Virus record (IMG/VR): IMGVR_UViG_3300022752_000225 | Location: 1-33,740 of that record | DNA length: 33,740 nucleotides | Reading direction: 5' to 3' (one strand) | DNA from: a virus | Shown here: one piece after another, positions 818 to 30,793 of the stretch | Position numbering within the stretch: the first letter of the stretch is position 1 | How the letters are laid out: the number at the start of each line of letters is the position of its first letter | Position numbers and translations under genes: made by a program | The notes under the pieces: generated by a model | Told to the model about the DNA's origin: nothing | Databases searched by the model: none | Seen by the model: the letters and a program-made list of their open reading frames with translations, nothing else

Positions 818-3039
818 TGGCTAATCAGACGATTACGCAATTACCGGCAGCAGGTGCTTTAACAGGCGCAGAGCTTGTTCCCATCGTCCAAGATGGCGGC
901 ACCGTACAGACAACGGTGGCTGCAATTGCGGCGAGTCCAGCGACAAACTACAGCTTTATCACGGCAACCAGTGAAGGCTTGCTTACGGATTCGAGGCAGC
1001 TTGCAACATCCGGATCGGGTTTAACACTCACAGACAACGGTCCTGGCTCAACAGTGGCTTTAGCCTTGTCAGGAGCGCCTGCAAGCCTCATCGCTTCGGG
1101 CAATGGCATACAGGTCAAGACAGGCGCGGGAACGCTTACAGCACGCTCTATTCAAGCGGGAACGGCAGGTTTAAGCGTATCTAATGGTGACGGTGTTGCA
1201 GGCAATCCAATCGTTTCGCTTTCCGGGCTGGTTCTTAATCTTGCTAACACTTCAGGTGTAGGTCTTTTATCGCGCACAAGCGGTGGAGGCATCGGTGTCG
1301 TCACGCTGCAGGGAACTGCAGATGAGATTGACGTTACAAATGGAACGGGCGATGGTGTAAACCCGACGGTAGGGCTAGCAGACAATCCAGTTGTGCCAGG
1401 CACGGGTTCGCTGACTTTGCCTAAGGGCAACGTAATGCAAAGGTCATCGCCTGTTAACGGCATGATTCGGTACAACACTCAAAGTGATCAGTTTGAGGGT
1501 GTCATCAATGGCGCTTGGGGATCGCTTGGCATTTCAGGTTACTCTGGATTCTCAGGATCGGGCGTATCAGGATTTTCTGGATTTTCAGGATCGGGTATTT
1601 CTGGATATTCTGGGTTTGGTCTATCTGGATTTTCAGGAGAGTCAGGGTTTTCAGGGTTTTCGGGTATTTCAGGTTTTTCCGGCGTGTCAGGATATTCAGG
1701 TGACAATCCTGGATCAAGTGGATTTTCAGGAATCAGCGGGTTTTCAGGCTTCTCAGGGTCAGGCATTTCGGGTTACTCAGGGTCTGGCATATCGGGCTAT
1801 TCGGGACTTGGTGTATCGGGATACTCAGGACTATCGGGCTTTTCTGGAATCAGCGGATTTTCGGGAAACAGTGGGTTTAGTGGAATATCCGGATTCAGTG
1901 GTATCTCAGGATTTTCAGGGTCTGGGGTTTCGGGATTCTCAGGATTTTCTGGCGCAGGAACATCGGGTTTTTCTGGCTTTAGTGGTATTTCTGGCTTTTC
2001 AGGGATCTCAGGTTTTTCAGGGATTTCAGGCTTTTCAGGACTTTCGGGATTTAGCGGTATCTCTGGGTACTCAGGAAGCGGTATATCAGGGTTTTCTGGT
2101 GCAGGAACTTCGGGCTTTTCAGGATTTAGCGGCCAATCAGGGTTTTCTGGCATCTCAGGTTTTTCAGGAATTTCAGGGTTTTCGGGGGCAGGTTCTGCAA
2201 TTACGGTATCGGATGAGGGAACGCCTCTTACTACCAACGTACAGTCATTTGATTTTGTGGGTGCTGGCGTTGTTGCAACAGCAATCGGCAACGCGGTTAC
2301 GGTTACGATTTCAGGGGGCGGTGGCGGAGGTAGTTCAGGATTTAGTGGGTACTCAGGATTCAGTGGAATTTCAGGCTTTAGCGGAATCTCGGGATTCAGC
2401 GGTATTTCTGGGTTTAGTGGAATCTCAGGGTTTAGTGGCATTTCAGGTTTTAGTGGTATTTCAGGATTTAGTGGTTCATCAGGCTTTAGCGGAACATCGG
2501 GCTTTAGTGGAGCATCAGGTTTTAACGGTCAATCAGGCTTTTCTGGCTTGGGAACCTCTGGATTTTCGGGGTTCAGTGGCCTGTCGGGGTTTTCAGGAGA
2601 TAGTGGCTTATCAGGATTTAGTGGTGGATCAGGGTTTTCTGGAGTTAGTGGCTACTCAGGCGTTAGCGGGTACTCAGGGGCAGGAACATCGGGTTTCAGT
2701 GGAGTGTCTGGCTTTAGTGGAATTTCAGGATTCAGCGGTTATTCAGGAACAAGTGGATACTCAGGAGCAGCCGTTTTAGGTTTGTCTGGGTTTTCAGGGC
2801 AAAGCGGTTATTCAGGAACGAGCGGGTTTTCAGGCATCAGCGGATTTTCTGGTATTAGCGGATTTTCTGGGGCATCAGCGCCGACAAATGTCACAACAAC
2901 GGCTAGTGCAACAGCCGGCTTCATTTTATTTGCAACGAACTCAACAACCGGAAGCCAGGCTGTTTTGGTTGATGCAGGTTTGTCGGTTAACGGCAGCACC
3001 AATGCAATCACAGGCGGCGTGGACGGCGGGACCTTCTGA
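817..3039 (+). CDS. Tail fibre with collagen-like G-x-S repeats
   Basis: The 740-residue protein begins with a non-repetitive part (about 1-236) rich in Thr/Gly/Ala beta-type sequence, as in fibre shafts. Residues about 237-455 and 508-686 are Gly-x-Ser triplets ([12 protein letters not shown]), a collagen-like pattern in which Ser holds the third position and F, Y, I or V the second. Between the two repeat blocks lies a small domain (about 456-505) containing VSDEGTPL and a VTVTI strand, common in aquatic phage fibres. The C-terminal 54 residues are unique and end in GGTF. The most likely role is a trimeric fibre for host recognition. The stop overlaps the start of a glycosyltransferase gene (TGATG), which suggests that fibre and modifying enzyme are co-translated. 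Confidence 0.8.
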   Translation: MANQTITQLPAAGALTGAELVPIVQDGGTVQTTVAAIAASPATNYSFITATSEGLLTDSRQLATSGSGLTLTDNGPGSTVALALSGAPASLIASGNGIQVKTGAGTLTARSIQAGTAGLSVSNGDGVAGNPIVSLSGLVLNLANTSGVGLLSRTSGGGIGVVTLQGTADEIDVTNGTGDGVNPTVGLADNPVVPGTGSLTLPKGNVMQRSSPVNGMIRYNTQSDQFEGVINGAWGSLGISGYSGFSGSGVSGFSGFSGSGISGYSGFGLSGFSGESGFSGFSGISGFSGVSGYSGDNPGSSGFSGISGFSGFSGSGISGYSGSGISGYSGLGVSGYSGLSGFSGISGFSGNSGFSGISGFSGISGFSGSGVSGFSGFSGAGTSGFSGFSGISGFSGISGFSGISGFSGLSGFSGISGYSGSGISGFSGAGTSGFSGFSGQSGFSGISGFSGISGFSGAGSAITVSDEGTPLTTNVQSFDFVGAGVVATAIGNAVTVTISGGGGGGSSGFSGYSGFSGISGFSGISGFSGISGFSGISGFSGISGFSGISGFSGSSGFSGTSGFSGASGFNGQSGFSGLGTSGFSGFSGLSGFSGDSGLSGFSGGSGFSGVSGYSGVSGYSGAGTSGFSGVSGFSGISGFSGYSGTSGYSGAAVLGLSGFSGQSGYSGTSGFSGISGFSGISGFSGASAPTNVTTTASATAGFILFATNSTTGSQAVLVDAGLSVNGSTNAITGGVDGGTF
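1528..2182 (+). repeat. Collagen-like coding repeat block 1
   Basis: Six- and nine-base coding units for Gly-x-Ser triplets. The protein repeat is near-perfect, but Ser is written with TCA, TCT, TCG, TCC, AGT and AGC, so the DNA repeat is much less perfect. Several other frames stay open through this block only because of the repeat. Confidence 0.85.
2332..2878 (+). repeat. Collagen-like coding repeat block 2
   Basis: Second block of Gly-x-Ser coding units, after the VSDEGTPL domain. AGT/AGC Ser codons are more frequent here than in block 1. It ends just before the C-terminal domain of the fibre. Confidence 0.85.
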
Positions 3040-4328
3040 TGAAATATAGCATCGTGATTCCAAGCTATAACCACTGCGATGATTTATTAAAACCATGTCT
3101 TGAGTCGATTTTCAAGTACACCGATATGGCTGACGTTGACCTAGTCATATCGGCAAACGGTTGCAAAGACAACACAAAGGAATACCTAGAAGAGTTAGCA
3201 ACAGACTTTGCAAAGATTGGCTTTGAAAAGCACCTTAGGGTCGTGTGGAATGATCAGCCGCTAGGTTATTCAGGGGCGTGTAATGCAGGCATCATAGCCA
3301 CGCGCACTGATCGAATTGTTTTGCTGAACAACGATACAGTGCTCTTGCCGCAGTTTAAGAATCAATGGCTAGAGATGCTGGATCAACCATTCAATGATCA
3401 TGAAAAGTGTGGCATCTCATGTGTCATCAAGGGACCATCAGAGCCTGCTGGGCGCGATTTTGCAGTGTTCTTTTGCGTAATGATCAAGCGCAGCGTTTTT
3501 CATCGCATAGGCCTTCTTAACACGGAATACGGCGTTGGTGGCGGCGAGGACACTGAGTTTTGCATTCTTGCGGAAAGAGCGGGTTTTGAGGTTCTTGAAT
3601 GCTCGCCCAAAACATGGAATGGTAATCAATTTACAGGCGTGTTTCCGATCTATCACAAGGGCGAGGGTACGGTTCTTGACACCTCGCTTGTGCCGGATTA
3701 CCACGACGTGTTTTTGCGTAATTCACTCAAGCTTGCCAAGAAGTTTAATCCGGACTGGTATCGCTGGCGCTTGTCCAATCATTGGGAGCGTGCAGTTTTC
3801 TTAAAGGGCGATCCGGTATTTCCAAGGGAAACGACGCGTTATCAGTGGGCAGCTCGCCACATCAAGGGTAATCGTGTGTTTGAGCTTGGCTGCTCAAGCG
3901 GGTACGGCGTTCAGTTTATGCCTGAAGATGTGGAGTACATGGGTCTTGATTACGATCCCATTATTGTTGAAGTTGCTAAAGAACAGAACTGGAGTCCAAA
4001 GGCGCAGTTTGTGCATGCCGACATTAATACTTATGAGTTAGGTAATTACGACACCATCATTGCCTTTGAAGTCATTGAGCACCTTGATAACGGCTTAGAG
4101 ATTCTGCAAAAGCTTAAACAGCATTGCAAGGTGTTGCTTTTTACGGTTCCTATGAATGAGCCTGTAGGATTTTGGGGGCCGCATCATAAGCTTCATGGAT
4201 TAAATGAATCGCACTTTCCAGGTTTTGATTTCAACTACATTGATGAGCACGGCAACATTACGCTAGCTCCCAAACCAATTAGTGAGCAAAATAGGCTTAA
4301 CCTTTTGATTGGAGGTTGGCATGCCTAG
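3039..4328 (+). CDS. Glycosyltransferase family 2 - methyltransferase fusion
   Basis: The N-terminal half is a GT-A glycosyltransferase of the GT2 type. It starts with YSIVIPSYN, has NNDT at 97-100 as the nucleotide-sugar/metal motif, and an acidic GGGEDTEF segment at 167-174. The C-terminal part is a class I S-adenosylmethionine methyltransferase with motif I at 281-290 (FELGCSSGYG), an acidic residue after motif II at D304 and FEVIEHL at 343-349. One chain could therefore add a sugar and methylate it or a neighbouring group. The start overlaps the fibre stop by one base, and the gene ends 8 bp inside the next glycosyltransferase gene. The coupling to a Ser-rich fibre suggests that the fibre is the acceptor, although host-surface modification is also possible. 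Confidence 0.85.
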   Translation: MKYSIVIPSYNHCDDLLKPCLESIFKYTDMADVDLVISANGCKDNTKEYLEELATDFAKIGFEKHLRVVWNDQPLGYSGACNAGIIATRTDRIVLLNNDTVLLPQFKNQWLEMLDQPFNDHEKCGISCVIKGPSEPAGRDFAVFFCVMIKRSVFHRIGLLNTEYGVGGGEDTEFCILAERAGFEVLECSPKTWNGNQFTGVFPIYHKGEGTVLDTSLVPDYHDVFLRNSLKLAKKFNPDWYRWRLSNHWERAVFLKGDPVFPRETTRYQWAARHIKGNRVFELGCSSGYGVQFMPEDVEYMGLDYDPIIVEVAKEQNWSPKAQFVHADINTYELGNYDTIIAFEVIEHLDNGLEILQKLKQHCKVLLFTVPMNEPVGFWGPHHKLHGLNESHFPGFDFNYIDEHGNITLAPKPISEQNRLNLLIGGWHA

Positions 4329-5289
4329 TGTTCTTTGCTCCATTTCAACACGAGGCAGAACGCATACAACGCTGCCTTTGGCTTTGCAAGCGGTGATGAG
4401 CCAAACGCGCACACCAGACAAAATTGTGATTTTTGATGATAACGATGTGCATCAAGATCTGCGTCACGATCCAATATACAAAAACTTGTTTTGGATGATA
4501 AGTTCCAAAGGAATTGCCTGGGAGTGGCTTTGGGCCGCAAAAAAAGGTCAGCATCACAATCATCAGATGGCCAATTGGATGGGATATGAATGGGTCTGGC
4601 GCGTTGATGATGATGCGCTTCCAGAGCCGAATGTTTTGCAGACCTTGCTTGAGCATATTGGCCCTGATGTTGGAGGTGTTGGCGGCTCTATTCTTATGCC
4701 TTCGGTTGATGTTGAAGGCGCAGTGAGTTCAGGAAAGATTGATGCAATTGACTGTGAACCTCATCCACAATGGCAGCGCATCAAGAAGAAGCAGCAAGTT
4801 GAGCACCTGCATTGTAGTTTTCTATATCGCGCAGGGATTTATGATTACAACTTAGGTTTATCAAGAGTCGCTCATCGCGAAGAAACGCTATTCAGTTATG
4901 GCTTGTATCGCAAGGGATACAAACTCGTGATTGTGCCGGATGCAATTACCTGGCACTGGAAAGCACAATCAGGAGGCATTCGATCCGAAACGAGTACAGA
5001 TCTTTATGCACATGACGAGAACATTTTCCGCAATACCATGTCCTTTAAAGATCATACGGTTGTGGTGCTCAATAACGGGATGGGCGATCATTTAGTGTTT
5101 ACGCATGTTTTGCCTGAAATCAAAAACCCTGTCATTTTTGGTTGCTATCCTGAGATTGTTCCTTGTCGTTCGATTGCAGAAGCACAAACGCTTTTTGGTG
5201 ACATTGAGATGTTTAACATTTACGCCAAGATGGATCGATGGAAATGGCAGAGCAGCCTTGAGGGTGCATTCAGGAGGCTTTACCTGTGA
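4321..5289 (+). CDS. GT2-type glycosyltransferase with a GT9-like N-terminal half at its C-terminus
   Basis: I chose the ATG at 4321, which follows GGAGG at 4312-4316. Residues 1 to about 235 form a GT-A glycosyltransferase with IFDDND near 37-42 and VDDD at 95-98 as the DxD motif. From about 245 a second fold begins: VVVLNNGMGDHLVF with GMGDHLV at 253-259, resembling the glycine loop at the start of GT9 heptosyltransferases. The chain stops after only about 80 residues of that fold, and the next gene carries what looks like the remainder. The stop overlaps the next GTG start. The acceptor and donor sugars are unknown. Confidence 0.75.
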   Translation: MPSVLCSISTRGRTHTTLPLALQAVMSQTRTPDKIVIFDDNDVHQDLRHDPIYKNLFWMISSKGIAWEWLWAAKKGQHHNHQMANWMGYEWVWRVDDDALPEPNVLQTLLEHIGPDVGGVGGSILMPSVDVEGAVSSGKIDAIDCEPHPQWQRIKKKQQVEHLHCSFLYRAGIYDYNLGLSRVAHREETLFSYGLYRKGYKLVIVPDAITWHWKAQSGGIRSETSTDLYAHDENIFRNTMSFKDHTVVVLNNGMGDHLVFTHVLPEIKNPVIFGCYPEIVPCRSIAEAQTLFGDIEMFNIYAKMDRWKWQSSLEGAFRRLYL

Positions 5290-26992: not shown

Positions 26993-27745
26993 CTATTGAT
27001 AATTATTTTTTGCCTGCCAAAACCGCAAAAGCGCTTCAAACATCTGCCAGCCGCGGGTTACGTCTGCATCTGACCACTCATACATAGACACCAAGTTTGG
27101 ATGCGTTGTCGAGACAAACACATTCGCGCATTTCGCGCTTGCAGATACGATTCCCATCAGGCCAGCGCGGTAGGCAGCTAGCTGCATCAGATGCTCGTCG
27201 TAACCCACTGGATCGTCCTCTGGACCGAATGCTTTTGTTTTGATGTCCACCACTGCGACATTGCAGTAAAGATCAACCTTGCCGCCAAAACCTTGCCTGT
27301 GAGCAAAAGAGCGCTCGCTTACCCACGTCTGCTTGCCGTATGCTTGGTCAAGGACTTGTGCCACAGAGCGCGAGTACTCAGTCTCCTCACCTCCCTCAAA
27401 TGCTCCTTGCACTTTGGCGTGGATGTCCGTACCAAGGTCTCGTGCATCTTGAGCTTGCTGCTTGCTGTCCTGAATCACGCGCTCGGCATACGCATCGATA
27501 GACTCATCATCGCGCTTTGGCAGGGTAAGTGCTGCCAACAGCAATTGTTGCTGCTTCCAGGCCTCCAGGCCGGGCTTGGCTGCGACGTTTAGGATGGTTG
27601 TGACGGAAGGTACTAGGTCGTACTTCCGTGCATCTCTTAGCGTTGTATTGCGCTCCCTGCCGTTGGCTCCTTTGACTGTGTATCGTGGGTTTCCCTGGCG
27701 GTCATACCAGTGCGTACTTTCTTTAATGTGAACTTTGATTTCCAT
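26993..27745 (-). CDS. PD-(D/E)xK nuclease of the Cas4/RecB type
   Basis: The 250-residue product shows the exonuclease core: GTDIH with H109, E144 in VSERSF, D158 in GGKVDLY, VDIKTK with D167 and K169, and QLAAYR at 188-193, the QxxxY motif of RecB/Cas4-type nucleases. No iron-sulfur cysteine cluster of the true Cas4 type is evident (one Cys at 161 and one near 205). It probably acts as the phage recombination exonuclease, making single-stranded ends. The ATG at 27745 follows AAGGA. Directly upstream in its transcript lies the hairpin and pentanucleotide array. Further upstream are the RAMP-like and SSB-like genes. Confidence 0.82.
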   Translation of the reverse strand: MEIKVHIKESTHWYDRQGNPRYTVKGANGRERNTTLRDARKYDLVPSVTTILNVAAKPGLEAWKQQQLLLAALTLPKRDDESIDAYAERVIQDSKQQAQDARDLGTDIHAKVQGAFEGGEETEYSRSVAQVLDQAYGKQTWVSERSFAHRQGFGGKVDLYCNVAVVDIKTKAFGPEDDPVGYDEHLMQLAAYRAGLMGIVSASAKCANVFVSTTHPNLVSMYEWSDADVTRGWQMFEALLRFWQAKNNYQ

Positions 27746-27836
27746 GTTGTTCCTTATGTTGAAAACCTCACCAAACCGTACCTTGCGTTGCCATGCACCG
27801 CCGTGCCCCGCCTTACCCCGCTGGATTCAAAGGCAC

Positions 27837-27864
27837 TGGAAGGGGTAGCACGCTACCCTATCCA
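27837..27864 (-). repeat. Hairpin unit 1 of 5
   Basis: The 28-nt unit reads, on the plus strand, outer stem TGGA/TCCA, 2x2 internal loop, inner stem GGGTAG/CTACCC and loop CACG. All pairs are Watson-Crick. It is the copy nearest to the nuclease gene and lacks the adjacent CTGA hairpin. Confidence 0.85.
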
Positions 27865-27964
27865 CTACCCTTACCATACCCTGCCGGACCCAGCCCGGAC
27901 GCGCCATACCCAACCTTGCCTTGCAGAGCCGAACACTGCCATACCCGACCAAAGTCAAAGGCAC

Positions 27965-27992
27965 TGGGATAGGCAGCAAGCCGCCCAACCCA
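27965..27992 (-). repeat. Hairpin unit 2 of 5
   Basis: Outer stem TGGG/CCCA, inner stem AGGCAG/CCGCCC, loop CAAG. Two A-C oppositions on the plus strand become U-G pairs in a minus-strand RNA, and the loop becomes CUUG, a known stable tetraloop. It lacks the adjacent CTGA hairpin. Confidence 0.85.
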
Positions 27993-28113
27993 CTACCCTC
28001 GCCACACCAAACCTAACCGTGCATCGCCTAACCTCACGACACCTTGCCTTGCCGGACCAAACCTCACCGCGCAACGCCACACAAAACCTCACTAGGCCAA
28101 CCCAAAAAACCAC

Positions 28114-28153
28114 TGGAAGGAGCGGCTGACCGCCCAATCCACTGATTTCTCAG
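28114..28153 (-). repeat. Hairpin unit 3 of 5, with adjacent GNRA hairpin
   Basis: Outer stem TGGA/TCCA and inner stem GAGCGG/CCGCCC, loop CTGA, occupy 28114-28141. CTGATTTCTCAG at 28142-28153 forms on the minus strand a 4-bp hairpin with a GAAA loop, directly stacked on the unit. One A-C opposition becomes U-G on the minus strand. Confidence 0.85.
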
Positions 28154-28232
28154 CCCTCACCACACCGAGCCAAACCTGACCGCACCTAACCCGACCTGAC
28201 CGTGCCGTGCCTTGCCACGCCTGAAAAAGCAC

Positions 28233-28272
28233 TGGAAGGAGCAGCACGCTGCCCAATCCGCTGATCTCTCAG
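28233..28272 (-). repeat. Hairpin unit 4 of 5, with adjacent GNRA hairpin
   Basis: Outer stem TGGA/TCCG and inner stem GAGCAG/CTGCCC, loop CACG, occupy 28233-28260. CTGATCTCTCAG at 28261-28272 gives on the minus strand a GAGA loop, still a GNRA type despite the base change. The terminal outer pair is the only one in the family that does not pair in the minus-strand RNA. Confidence 0.85.
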
Positions 28273-28331
28273 CCCATGCCTTACCTGACCCTACCTAACC
28301 ACACCCTGCCTAACCGCGCCTGAAAAAGCAC

Positions 28332-28371
28332 TGGGAAGGACAGAACCCTGCCCGACCCACTGATTTCTCAG
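28332..28371 (-). repeat. Hairpin unit 5 of 5, with adjacent GNRA hairpin
   Basis: Outer stem TGGG/CCCA and inner stem GGACAG/CTGCCC, loop AACC, occupy 28332-28359. CTGATTTCTCAG at 28360-28371 gives a GAAA-loop hairpin on the minus strand. This unit would be transcribed first from the minus-strand promoter. Confidence 0.85.
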
Positions 28372-28440
28372 TTCCAAACCTCACCAGGCCGCGCCCCACC
28401 AGGCCGCACCTAACCCTGCCAGACCAGGCCTGGCCAGGCC

Positions 28441-29010
28441 TTATGACTGCTCTTCAAATGCTGTAACCCTGAAGCAACCAAATGGCCCGCGCTTCTCAGG
28501 TCTAAAGTCACCAATGCCAATGTACTCGCCGGCCTCGGTCAACAAGCGATGCGCATCATCAATGCCGAGCAGGTTGTCATTGACGACCAAATCAAACTTG
28601 GCTCCCCAGCAGTCAAACCGCGGGCGGTGGCGCATGATCCGACCTTTGGTTGCTGGAATAGTCACAGGCCGGCTATCAACCTCAAAATCCTTTGCTGGAC
28701 CAGCGCCGTTCAAGATCGTTACCGAGTCGCTATTCATGCGAACCGCTGATGGAACAATGAACTTCAACGTCTTCCTGCTGCCGCGCATTTTGTGGTTAGC
28801 ACCGGCATTAGCCATGCAAGCAGGAATACTAAAAGCGTTGAAGTAAAACGTGCCATCAGGGGCGATATAAGCCACCTTGGTGGCCTCATCGCGTGGGTTT
28901 GAGTTGTCAACCTTCACCCGACGGGTTGCCTTGCCCTGCTCGGCTTCTTCGCCAAAGCGGTGGATTAAAAGAGGTGATGTGCCGCGGATTTCAACTGATA
29001 CTGTTTTCAT
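28441..29010 (-). CDS. Conserved phage protein with RAMP-like features
   Basis: I chose the ATG at 29010, which has GGAG 6 nt upstream; a TTG at 29022 would include that site. The 189-residue protein begins MKTVSVEIRGTSPLLIHRF and contains SRPVTIPATKGRIMRHRPRF, then ends IGIGDFRPEKRGPFGCFRV. This belongs to a widespread phage family whose members sit in early or recombination operons. The C-terminal G-x-G ... G-x-x-G pattern resembles the glycine-rich loop of RAMP (Cas7-type) RNA-binding proteins; I hold that as an impression, not a proven fold. Its stop codon abuts the pentanucleotide array. It could equally be a single-strand annealing protein working with the nuclease. Confidence 0.7.
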   Translation of the reverse strand: MKTVSVEIRGTSPLLIHRFGEEAEQGKATRRVKVDNSNPRDEATKVAYIAPDGTFYFNAFSIPACMANAGANHKMRGSRKTLKFIVPSAVRMNSDSVTILNGAGPAKDFEVDSRPVTIPATKGRIMRHRPRFDCWGAKFDLVVNDNLLGIDDAHRLLTEAGEYIGIGDFRPEKRGPFGCFRVTAFEEQS

Positions 29011-29036
29011 GTATAGCTCCAAATAAAAAAGTTAAA

Positions 29037-30691: not shown

Positions 30692-30793
30692 CCTCCAACG
30701 GGCATGGCTACCTCGACGGAGGGAAAAGCGGACTCGTCACCCGCCTGCCTACGCCCAACTTCAGTGACGACGAACCTTTGACGAGGGTAGATT
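30692..30793 (+). other. Structured intergenic leader before the replication genes
   Basis: The 102-bp gap contains two inverted repeats: CCTCC...GGAGG and TCGTCAC (30734-30740) ... GTGACGA (30764-30770), the latter perfect over 7 bp with a 23-nt loop. A 25-codon frame from an ATG at about 30703 also fits but has no ribosome site. The gap may act as a leader or attenuator for the initiator gene at 30794. Confidence 0.4.

Follow-up and report, generated by a model that had tools for sequence, protein, structure and literature searches.

Repeated hairpins beside a predicted RAMP-protein gene in an uncultivated phage as guide-RNA tails of a probable VIPR locus

Five related 28-nt hairpins lie on the minus strand of the DNA analysed here, a virus record of 33,740 bases (hereafter the window), at 27837-27864, 27965-27992, 28114-28141, 28233-28260 and 28332-28359. 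The question raised by this locus is what such a series of structured elements does in a 695-base stretch between two minus-strand genes, one of 193 aa, which ends at 28441, and an exonuclease gene with its start at 27745. The first-pass annotation had viewed the hairpins as a free-standing RNA family unlike any described. The first part of that proposal was not upheld: the hairpins are the tails of guide RNAs, and the informative part of the locus is the YNNGG tract between them. The second part holds for Rfam, where no match to the hairpins was found at gathering threshold, but the system itself has been described (PMC13142463).

In that 2026 preprint, VIPR consists of a phage-encoded RAMP protein, Vipr, which is small and has an RRM core and a G-loop, and of vrRNAs that each combine 9-16 YNNGG repeats, constant in GGY and variable in NN, with a constant structured 3′ tail (PMC13142463). 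The RNAs, of about 100 nt, are expressed, bound by Vipr and repress transcription of their targets; guides read DNA as NN-skip-NN, with one base skipped, usually the wobble base; and the system represses competing elements, with phage SUSP1 as the prototype, an accessory vap gene as a typical component and seven VIPR types in all (PMC13142463). The window locus matches this anatomy in its RAMP gene, its YNNGG tracts, its structured tails and a SUSP1 homologue that has arrays. We therefore read it, with a probability of about 0.9, as the VIPR locus of a phage, that is, a gene-silencing system related to CRISPR and made up of a Vipr protein and vrRNAs. The features of the locus, in the order in which the minus strand is read, are as follows.

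28441..29022, minus strand: vipr gene, encoding a predicted RAMP protein of 193 aa from a TTG at 29022, with an ATG 12 bases further in
28374..28443, minus strand: vr1 guide tract, 14 YNNGG units, the first of which (TAAGG) overlaps the vipr stop codon
28324..28373, minus strand: vr1 3′ tail, a CUGA-GAAA-UCAG mini-hairpin, the 28-nt hairpin at 28332-28359, then a U run
28274..28323, minus strand: vr2 guide tract, 10 units
28225..28273, minus strand: vr2 3′ tail, a mini-hairpin with a GAGA loop, the 28-nt hairpin at 28233-28260 and a U run
28155..28224, minus strand: vr3 guide tract, 14 units
28106..28154, minus strand: vr3 3′ tail, a mini-hairpin with a GAAA loop, the 28-nt hairpin at 28114-28141 and a U run; missing in the related phage L009
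27997..28096, minus strand: vr4 guide tract of 20 units, of which five have a degenerate GG
27957..27996, minus strand: vr4 3′ tail, the 28-nt hairpin at 27965-27992
27869..27953, minus strand: vr5 guide tract of 17 units, of which three have a degenerate GG; L009 has the identical tract
27829..27868, minus strand: vr5 3′ tail, the 28-nt hairpin at 27837-27864
27766..27825, minus strand: vr6 tract of 12 units, of which three have a degenerate GG; without a tail and just before the exonuclease gene

The architecture first described for the hairpins (a 4-bp outer stem, a 2x2 internal loop, a 6-bp inner stem and a 4-nt loop) was recovered in all five units. Their register is ungapped, as had been implied by calling them exact 28-nt units, but they are not exact copies: over 38 nt, four of them share 71-84% identity with the reference copy. 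When the aligned rows were read as minus-strand RNA, 49 of the 50 stem pairs in the window formed, the sole failure being one C-A opposition, and five G-U pairs were present on that strand, both as originally counted. The minus strand had been named as the functional one; the flanking genes are encoded on it, and the hairpins pair better as RNA from it. T-rich runs after the hairpins and GNRA mini-hairpins (loops GAAA, GAGA and GAAA) beside three of the units were likewise present, and in two of these three the minimum-energy fold uses an extended stem instead of the GNRA hairpin. The folding z-scores of the five units were -3.05, -1.66, -3.88, -3.85 and -4.25, so that one of the five is weak.

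Pairing was also assessed over nine rows, five from the window and four from L009, which come from two closely related phages only. On the minus strand, 88 of the 90 pair cells (97.8%) formed, and the two failing cells are a single C-A opposition common to one window unit and its L009 copy. Sliding the partner columns never brought pairing above 64.4%. The earlier claim of compensatory change was borne out in part by 500 shuffles. None of them matched the real rows in the number of cells paired, the number of cells changed on both sides or the covariation score; however, 3 of the 10 hairpin pairs had changed on both sides, an ordinary count that 162 shuffles reach, and the number of pair types is low, being reached by 499.

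Homologues in related phages had been expected, and one was found: a covariance model of the tail recovered its own nine sources and then nothing better than 16.7 bits (E 0.026), in the viral locus L023, so that the tail was found in the window phage and its close relative L009, 2 of the 39 sources searched. A degenerate pattern of the hairpin unit matched four stretches in viral contigs, none with a GG array, and these were taken as chance. When positions 27700-28460 were compared with Rfam at E values up to 5, two sub-threshold chance matches and no ribozyme family were obtained.

From 27766 to 28443, past the interval originally annotated, the minus strand carries a GG at 5-base intervals in the stretches that separate the hairpins. 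The grammar of the array is YNNGG on this strand, with 86 units in six tracts, a count that takes vr1 as 13 units (14 with the unit overlapping the vipr stop codon). Position 1 is C or T in 86/86 units, the first G is kept in 76/86 and the second in 85/86, and both N positions carry all four bases; the tract parser favoured Y and GG in picking the phase, but the phase is common to the whole tract. The vipr stop codon TAA itself begins the first unit (TAAGG, window 28439-28443, minus strand). A constant structured 3′ tail is present on 5 of the 6 tracts: the five hairpins are the 3′ tails of five vrRNAs, and the sixth tract has none. Two tracts, vr4 (20 units) and vr5 (17 units), exceed the published 9-16 units (PMC13142463), and degenerate GGs occur in vr4-vr6. 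The locus does not form a CRISPR array, in which near-identical direct repeats alternate with unique spacers of like length, as its 38-nt units are 71-84% alike, are spaced 99-149 bases apart and are accompanied by 5-nt units.

The 193-aa protein encoded beside the tracts matches phrog_4652 (E 3.8e-22), a family of unknown function, and scans of it found no Pfam, PADLOC or NCBIfam family. An AlphaFold model based on 23 sequences from the window and the fetched loci reached a pLDDT of 83.6. In a Foldseek search of the PDB with this model, the best 50 matches were all CRISPR effector chains, the top one (E 7e-6) from a type III-A Csm complex; realignment by VIA gave a Z of 11.4 and an rmsd of 4.4 over 164 residues for a Csm chain, followed by entries named Csm3 at Z 10.2-10.8. 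The predicted fold of Vipr is that of a CRISPR RAMP protein, and the G-loop GxGDxRPxxxGPFGxF is invariant over the 23 Vipr sequences. By tblastn, the window protein matched phiSUSP1 with an E of 2e-4 over 97% of the query, at approximately 23.5% identity. The SUSP1 homologue has arrays before and after it and, to judge by this locus layout, is presumably the Vipr of the preprint (PMC13142463).

Comparison of the window with L009 showed how the tracts vary. Over 81 sites for each position of the aligned units, Y had changed at 6, the two N positions at 5 and 2, and the two G positions at 0 and 0; GG was thus changed at 0 of 162 sites vs 7 changes in NN, and the other aligned positions, tails and flanks together, had changed at 22 of 216. 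L009 lacks an 83-base stretch that holds one tail and the first part of vr4, and vr3 is joined to vr4 there; this stretch was either lost in L009 or gained in the window. The two phages further differ in vr2 by two pentamers and several NN changes, and one vr1 dinucleotide, CT in the window, is TT in L009, leucine still being possible at the target codon. These patterns bear on whether the locus is a decaying archive, in which vipr and some guides would be intact, vr4-vr6 would be relics and the system would be little used. We regard such decay as unlikely: the degenerate GGs are indeed confined to vr4-vr6, and vr6 is without a tail, but the 17 units of vr5 do not differ between the two phages, and Vipr, 99% identical to the L009 copy and 53-77% identical to the other 21 sequences aligned, retains the invariant G-loop residues.

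A blastn search of the region against phages gave two weak 32-base matches in Felixounavirus-type Escherichia phages, one of them classed as Felixounavirus. Because these matches sit in an array of the same kind, they led to the Vipr protein family: both phages carry such pentamer arrays, with hairpins that differ by eye, beside a 195-aa protein that forms one family, phrog_4652, with the 193-aa protein of the window, and the homologue of Escherichia phage SME50 and the window Vipr both match this family. In all 33 fetched viral relatives of the 193-aa protein, a GG array was present on the gene strand. Counting a locus as positive if at least 7/10 GG were in register no more than 800 bases from the gene, we found arrays on its strand in 51/54 homologue loci and on the opposite strand in 0/54. 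Under a stricter rule (9/10 anywhere in the locus), 48/54 Vipr loci were positive on the gene strand vs 1/161 control loci, and the single passing control (L203) is a plain G-rich stretch. The 54 loci include near-identical contigs (for example L022-L029) and leave out L001 (the window's own copy), L002, L003, L042 (the contig of L009), L142 and L144 (partial). Among them are distant homologues (21-31% identity) from Mycobacterium, Gordonia, Pseudomonas and enterobacterial phages and from Paenibacillus, Azospirillum and Bradyrhizobium plasmids. The array rule was failed by three of the 54 (L131, which is phiHSIC, L135 and L143); in L135 the array lies inside the annotated gene end.

The genes around vipr were compared in the same loci. 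The exonuclease (27745..26993) was rejected as a general partner, since 0/79 exonuclease-relative loci (L043-L121) had arrays and since it lies 2.1 kb from vipr in L009; weak exonuclease matches (27-28%) were found more than 1 kb from vipr in L035 and L040. Among the 14 largest gene clusters within 3.5 kb, those common to more than 4 of 26 loci were vipr and overlapping antisense or array frames. No neighbour gene of the window recurs beside vipr except in L009, and no accessory (vap) gene was recognised among the neighbours compared. Because its neighbours do not follow vipr except in L009, vipr and the arrays appear, judging from gene content, to move as a unit.

The targets of the guides were sought in the IMG/VR viral collection by applying the one-skip rule (PMC13142463) to eight-unit cores of vr1, vr3 and vr5. 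The tail-proximal core of vr1 gave 20 matches, 19 of which read N-[PST]-Q-x-x-x before the searched YALGALE. The skipped base falls at the wobble position, the wobble frame is the longest open frame in 18/20, and DUF2800 was found in 5/5 scanned of the 19 matched proteins. In 19/20 matches the AA of the TAAGG unit fits an Asn codon ahead of this motif. The second core of vr3 (units 3-10) gave 28 matches, 26 of which carry, in the wobble frame, the integrase motif GH-xxx-[KN]TTQRYAH; its KTTQRYAH part follows from the search, and GH lies five residues before the searched TTQRYAH. Here the wobble frame is the longest in 24/28, and PF00589 was found in 10/10 proteins scanned. As the viral matches include near-duplicate contigs, 19/20 and 26/28 are not independent counts. 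The first core of vr3 gave 7 matches, 2 in integrases and the other 5 in two unrelated sequences. For the whole guides, the best matches were L161 for vr1 (25/28 bases over 14 units; 9/12 outside the searched core) and L189 for vr3 (26/28 bases; 10/12 outside the core), 16 bases of each being required by the search.

A control in which the same eight vr3 units were placed in reversed order gave 16 matches, 6 of them in one near-identical sequence, and the wobble frame was the longest in 1/16. Since the control also piles up in one sequence, pile-up in a family is not telling by itself. This control concerned vr3 and was judged by reading frames and peptides rather than by HMM; by construction it cannot encode the integrase motif, so that it tests frame and spread and not the motif. 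When the units outside the core were permuted, 4 of 120 distinct orders of vr1, the true one included, were as good (20 rows; best order 7.5 vs 6.75), and for vr3 1 of 360, the true order itself, was as good (26 integrase rows, the two other matches being dropped). On these sequence matches, the gene families indicated are DUF2800-type nucleases for vr1 and phage tyrosine integrases for vr3.

Other searches gave no targets. With up to 3 mismatches, the full vr1 and vr3 patterns were found in 0/299 and 0/299 genomes of one phylum, which was guessed and may not be that of the host, and the vr1 pattern had no match in 3 further genomes. Neither eleven units of vr5 nor the complete vr2 matched any of 50 virus records; for no guide searched was a perfect target found; and with the one-skip rule on both strands of the fetched loci (2.08 Mb, own genome included), no guide rose above 12 shuffled guides. 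Of the 6 matches to the vr5 core, 3 lie in one YqaJ-like motif (one scanned), but the remainder of the guide matched at chance level, with 4-5/18 bases, so that no target is claimed for it. The decoded peptides of vr5 (antisense) and vr4 (sense) had no tblastn match in phages.

The part of each gene that is read may itself be of interest. The vr1 guide spans what we take to be the Q-x-x-x-Y motif of a PD-(D/E)xK nuclease, and vr3 presumably spans the T-T-x-R-Y-A-H segment with the nucleophilic tyrosine of the integrase. It is tempting, but at shorter than even odds, to suppose that, through the one-base skip, a guide copies a protein motif by the first two positions of its codons and that the guides of this phage are aimed at catalytic codons, in a Vipr clade that has no recognised accessory gene, has its own hairpin tail and remodels its guides by recombination between arrays. 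If true, guides to catalytic codons would remain effective against competitor phages that have diverged widely, and hardly any silent change would allow escape. Two of six guides are decoded here, and a database search favours guides to conserved motifs; that both decoded guides cover catalytic-motif codons may be a new aspect, which two guides and a biased search cannot establish.

Serial intrinsic terminators or mRNA-stability elements between co-directional genes, with the pentamers as incidental spacer, would also account for a hairpin with a U run after it in an intergenic stretch of this kind and for the good folding energies of 4/5 hairpins. We nevertheless hold this explanation to be very improbable: it leaves the 5-base grammar unexplained, the arrays are linked to one protein family in 51/54 loci, including loci without these hairpins, and two guides match phage gene families. 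The terminator and guide-tail readings do overlap, in that a vrRNA tail may also end transcription. Almost no weight is given to the tracts forming G-quadruplexes of two layers, in RNA or DNA, or serving Rho as C-rich rut sites on the plus strand, for although GGN3GGN3GGN3GG fits the two-tetrad motif and the plus strand is C-rich, neither accounts for the pyrimidine at position 1 in 86/86 units or for the association with a RAMP protein, and quadruplex formation would not make NN read as codons.

Assignment of the locus to VIPR thus draws on a predicted protein fold, homology, the repeat grammar, the tails, the association of arrays with Vipr and the gene families that 2 of the 6 guides apparently read. 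The locus is a further example of an already described system (PMC13142463), now in an uncultivated phage. On this reading, the minus strand encodes a predicted RAMP protein of about 20 kD (Vipr, 29022..28441) and then, in the next 680 bases, a set of vrRNAs, each a YNNGG tract followed by a hairpin tail. By analogy with the published mechanism (PMC13142463), Vipr subunits would line the tract and keep GGY from pairing, and the NN dinucleotides would pair with a DNA strand, one base being skipped between pairs, and silence the bound gene. The guides correspond to codons of the coding strand, the skipped base being the wobble base. Transcription, processing, RNP assembly, DNA binding and repression at the window locus are all carried over from the described system (PMC13142463). 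Since vr1 points to DUF2800-type nuclease genes and vr3 to tyrosine integrase genes, the likely use of the system would be to silence competing phages or prophages in the same host.

With SUSP1 VIPR, a type II system (PMC13142463), the window locus has several features in common: the RAMP proteins are homologous, the YNNGG tracts lie on the strand of the gene, the 3′ tails are structured, both loci are phage-borne, and the guides read coding sequence and skip the wobble base. SUSP1, however, has one vrRNA upstream, three downstream and a vap1 gene (PMC13142463), whereas in the window all guides are downstream and no vap was recognised; the tails differ as well, being a 28-nt hairpin, accompanied in some units by a GNRA mini-hairpin, in the window, and being described with a pseudoknot in the SUSP1 clade (PMC13142463). 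The close IMG/VR relatives (L010-L041) share Vipr proteins 52-77% identical and gene-strand GG arrays, but the tail model gave nothing convincing in the 21 of these 32 loci that were searched, and of 7 relative loci whose arrays were read, several have long tracts that are unbroken or otherwise punctuated, for instance blocks set apart by two bases, and no window-type hairpin was seen. With CRISPR class 1 (Cas7/Csm3 and crRNA), the locus shares the predicted RAMP fold, an RNA guide with a constant end and a modular guide array. Unlike class 1, it has no CRISPR-type repeat array and spreads its guide information as NN in pentamers; among the scanned window neighbours there were no cas genes beyond a phage exonuclease, which weakly matches a PHROG labelled 'CRISPR/Cas system associated'. 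Structured RNA elements between guide tracts are also found in hammerhead-interspersed VIPR arrays (PMC13142463), but no ribozyme family in Rfam was matched at gathering threshold, nor in the region of the arrays when E values up to 5 were allowed. These findings place in an uncultivated phage an RNA-guided system that was described very recently, and they show that its guides can be translated from the sequence into motifs of phage proteins. As Vipr homologues with adjacent arrays, labelled hypothetical or left without annotation, occur in phages of Mycobacterium, Gordonia, Pseudomonas and enterobacteria and on plasmids of Paenibacillus, Azospirillum and Bradyrhizobium, the aims of VIPR guides become testable on many more loci.

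Several further observations were made along the way. At window positions 30701-30770 (plus strand), between small early plus-strand genes, Rfam reports an int-alpA RNA at 36.8 bits (gathering threshold 35.8). A Pacearchaeota MAG contig (L143) encodes a Vipr homologue at 37% identity with no GG array within 800 bases. In the Mycobacterium and Gordonia phages L122, L123, L125, L127, L128, L130 and L132, Vipr homologues annotated as 'hypothetical' are accompanied by GG arrays, that of L123 being weak (7/10). Array punctuation takes other forms elsewhere: in L021, very long, near-unbroken YNNGG tracts (3394-3904 and 4555-4929) flank the Vipr gene with no window-type hairpin, and at 3685-3971 of L023 pentamer blocks are parted by the dinucleotide TA. 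Limnohabitans phage DC33 (L004, PQ492659.1) is filed under Inoviridae, yet it has a 39-kb circular genome with an L-alanyl-D-glutamate peptidase gene, and its taxonomy looks wrong. Escherichia phage SME50 (L002, Felixounavirus) carries unannotated GG arrays at 2707-3067 and 4252-4475 with hairpin-like elements of its own, and these arrays flank the Vipr homologue and one further gene.
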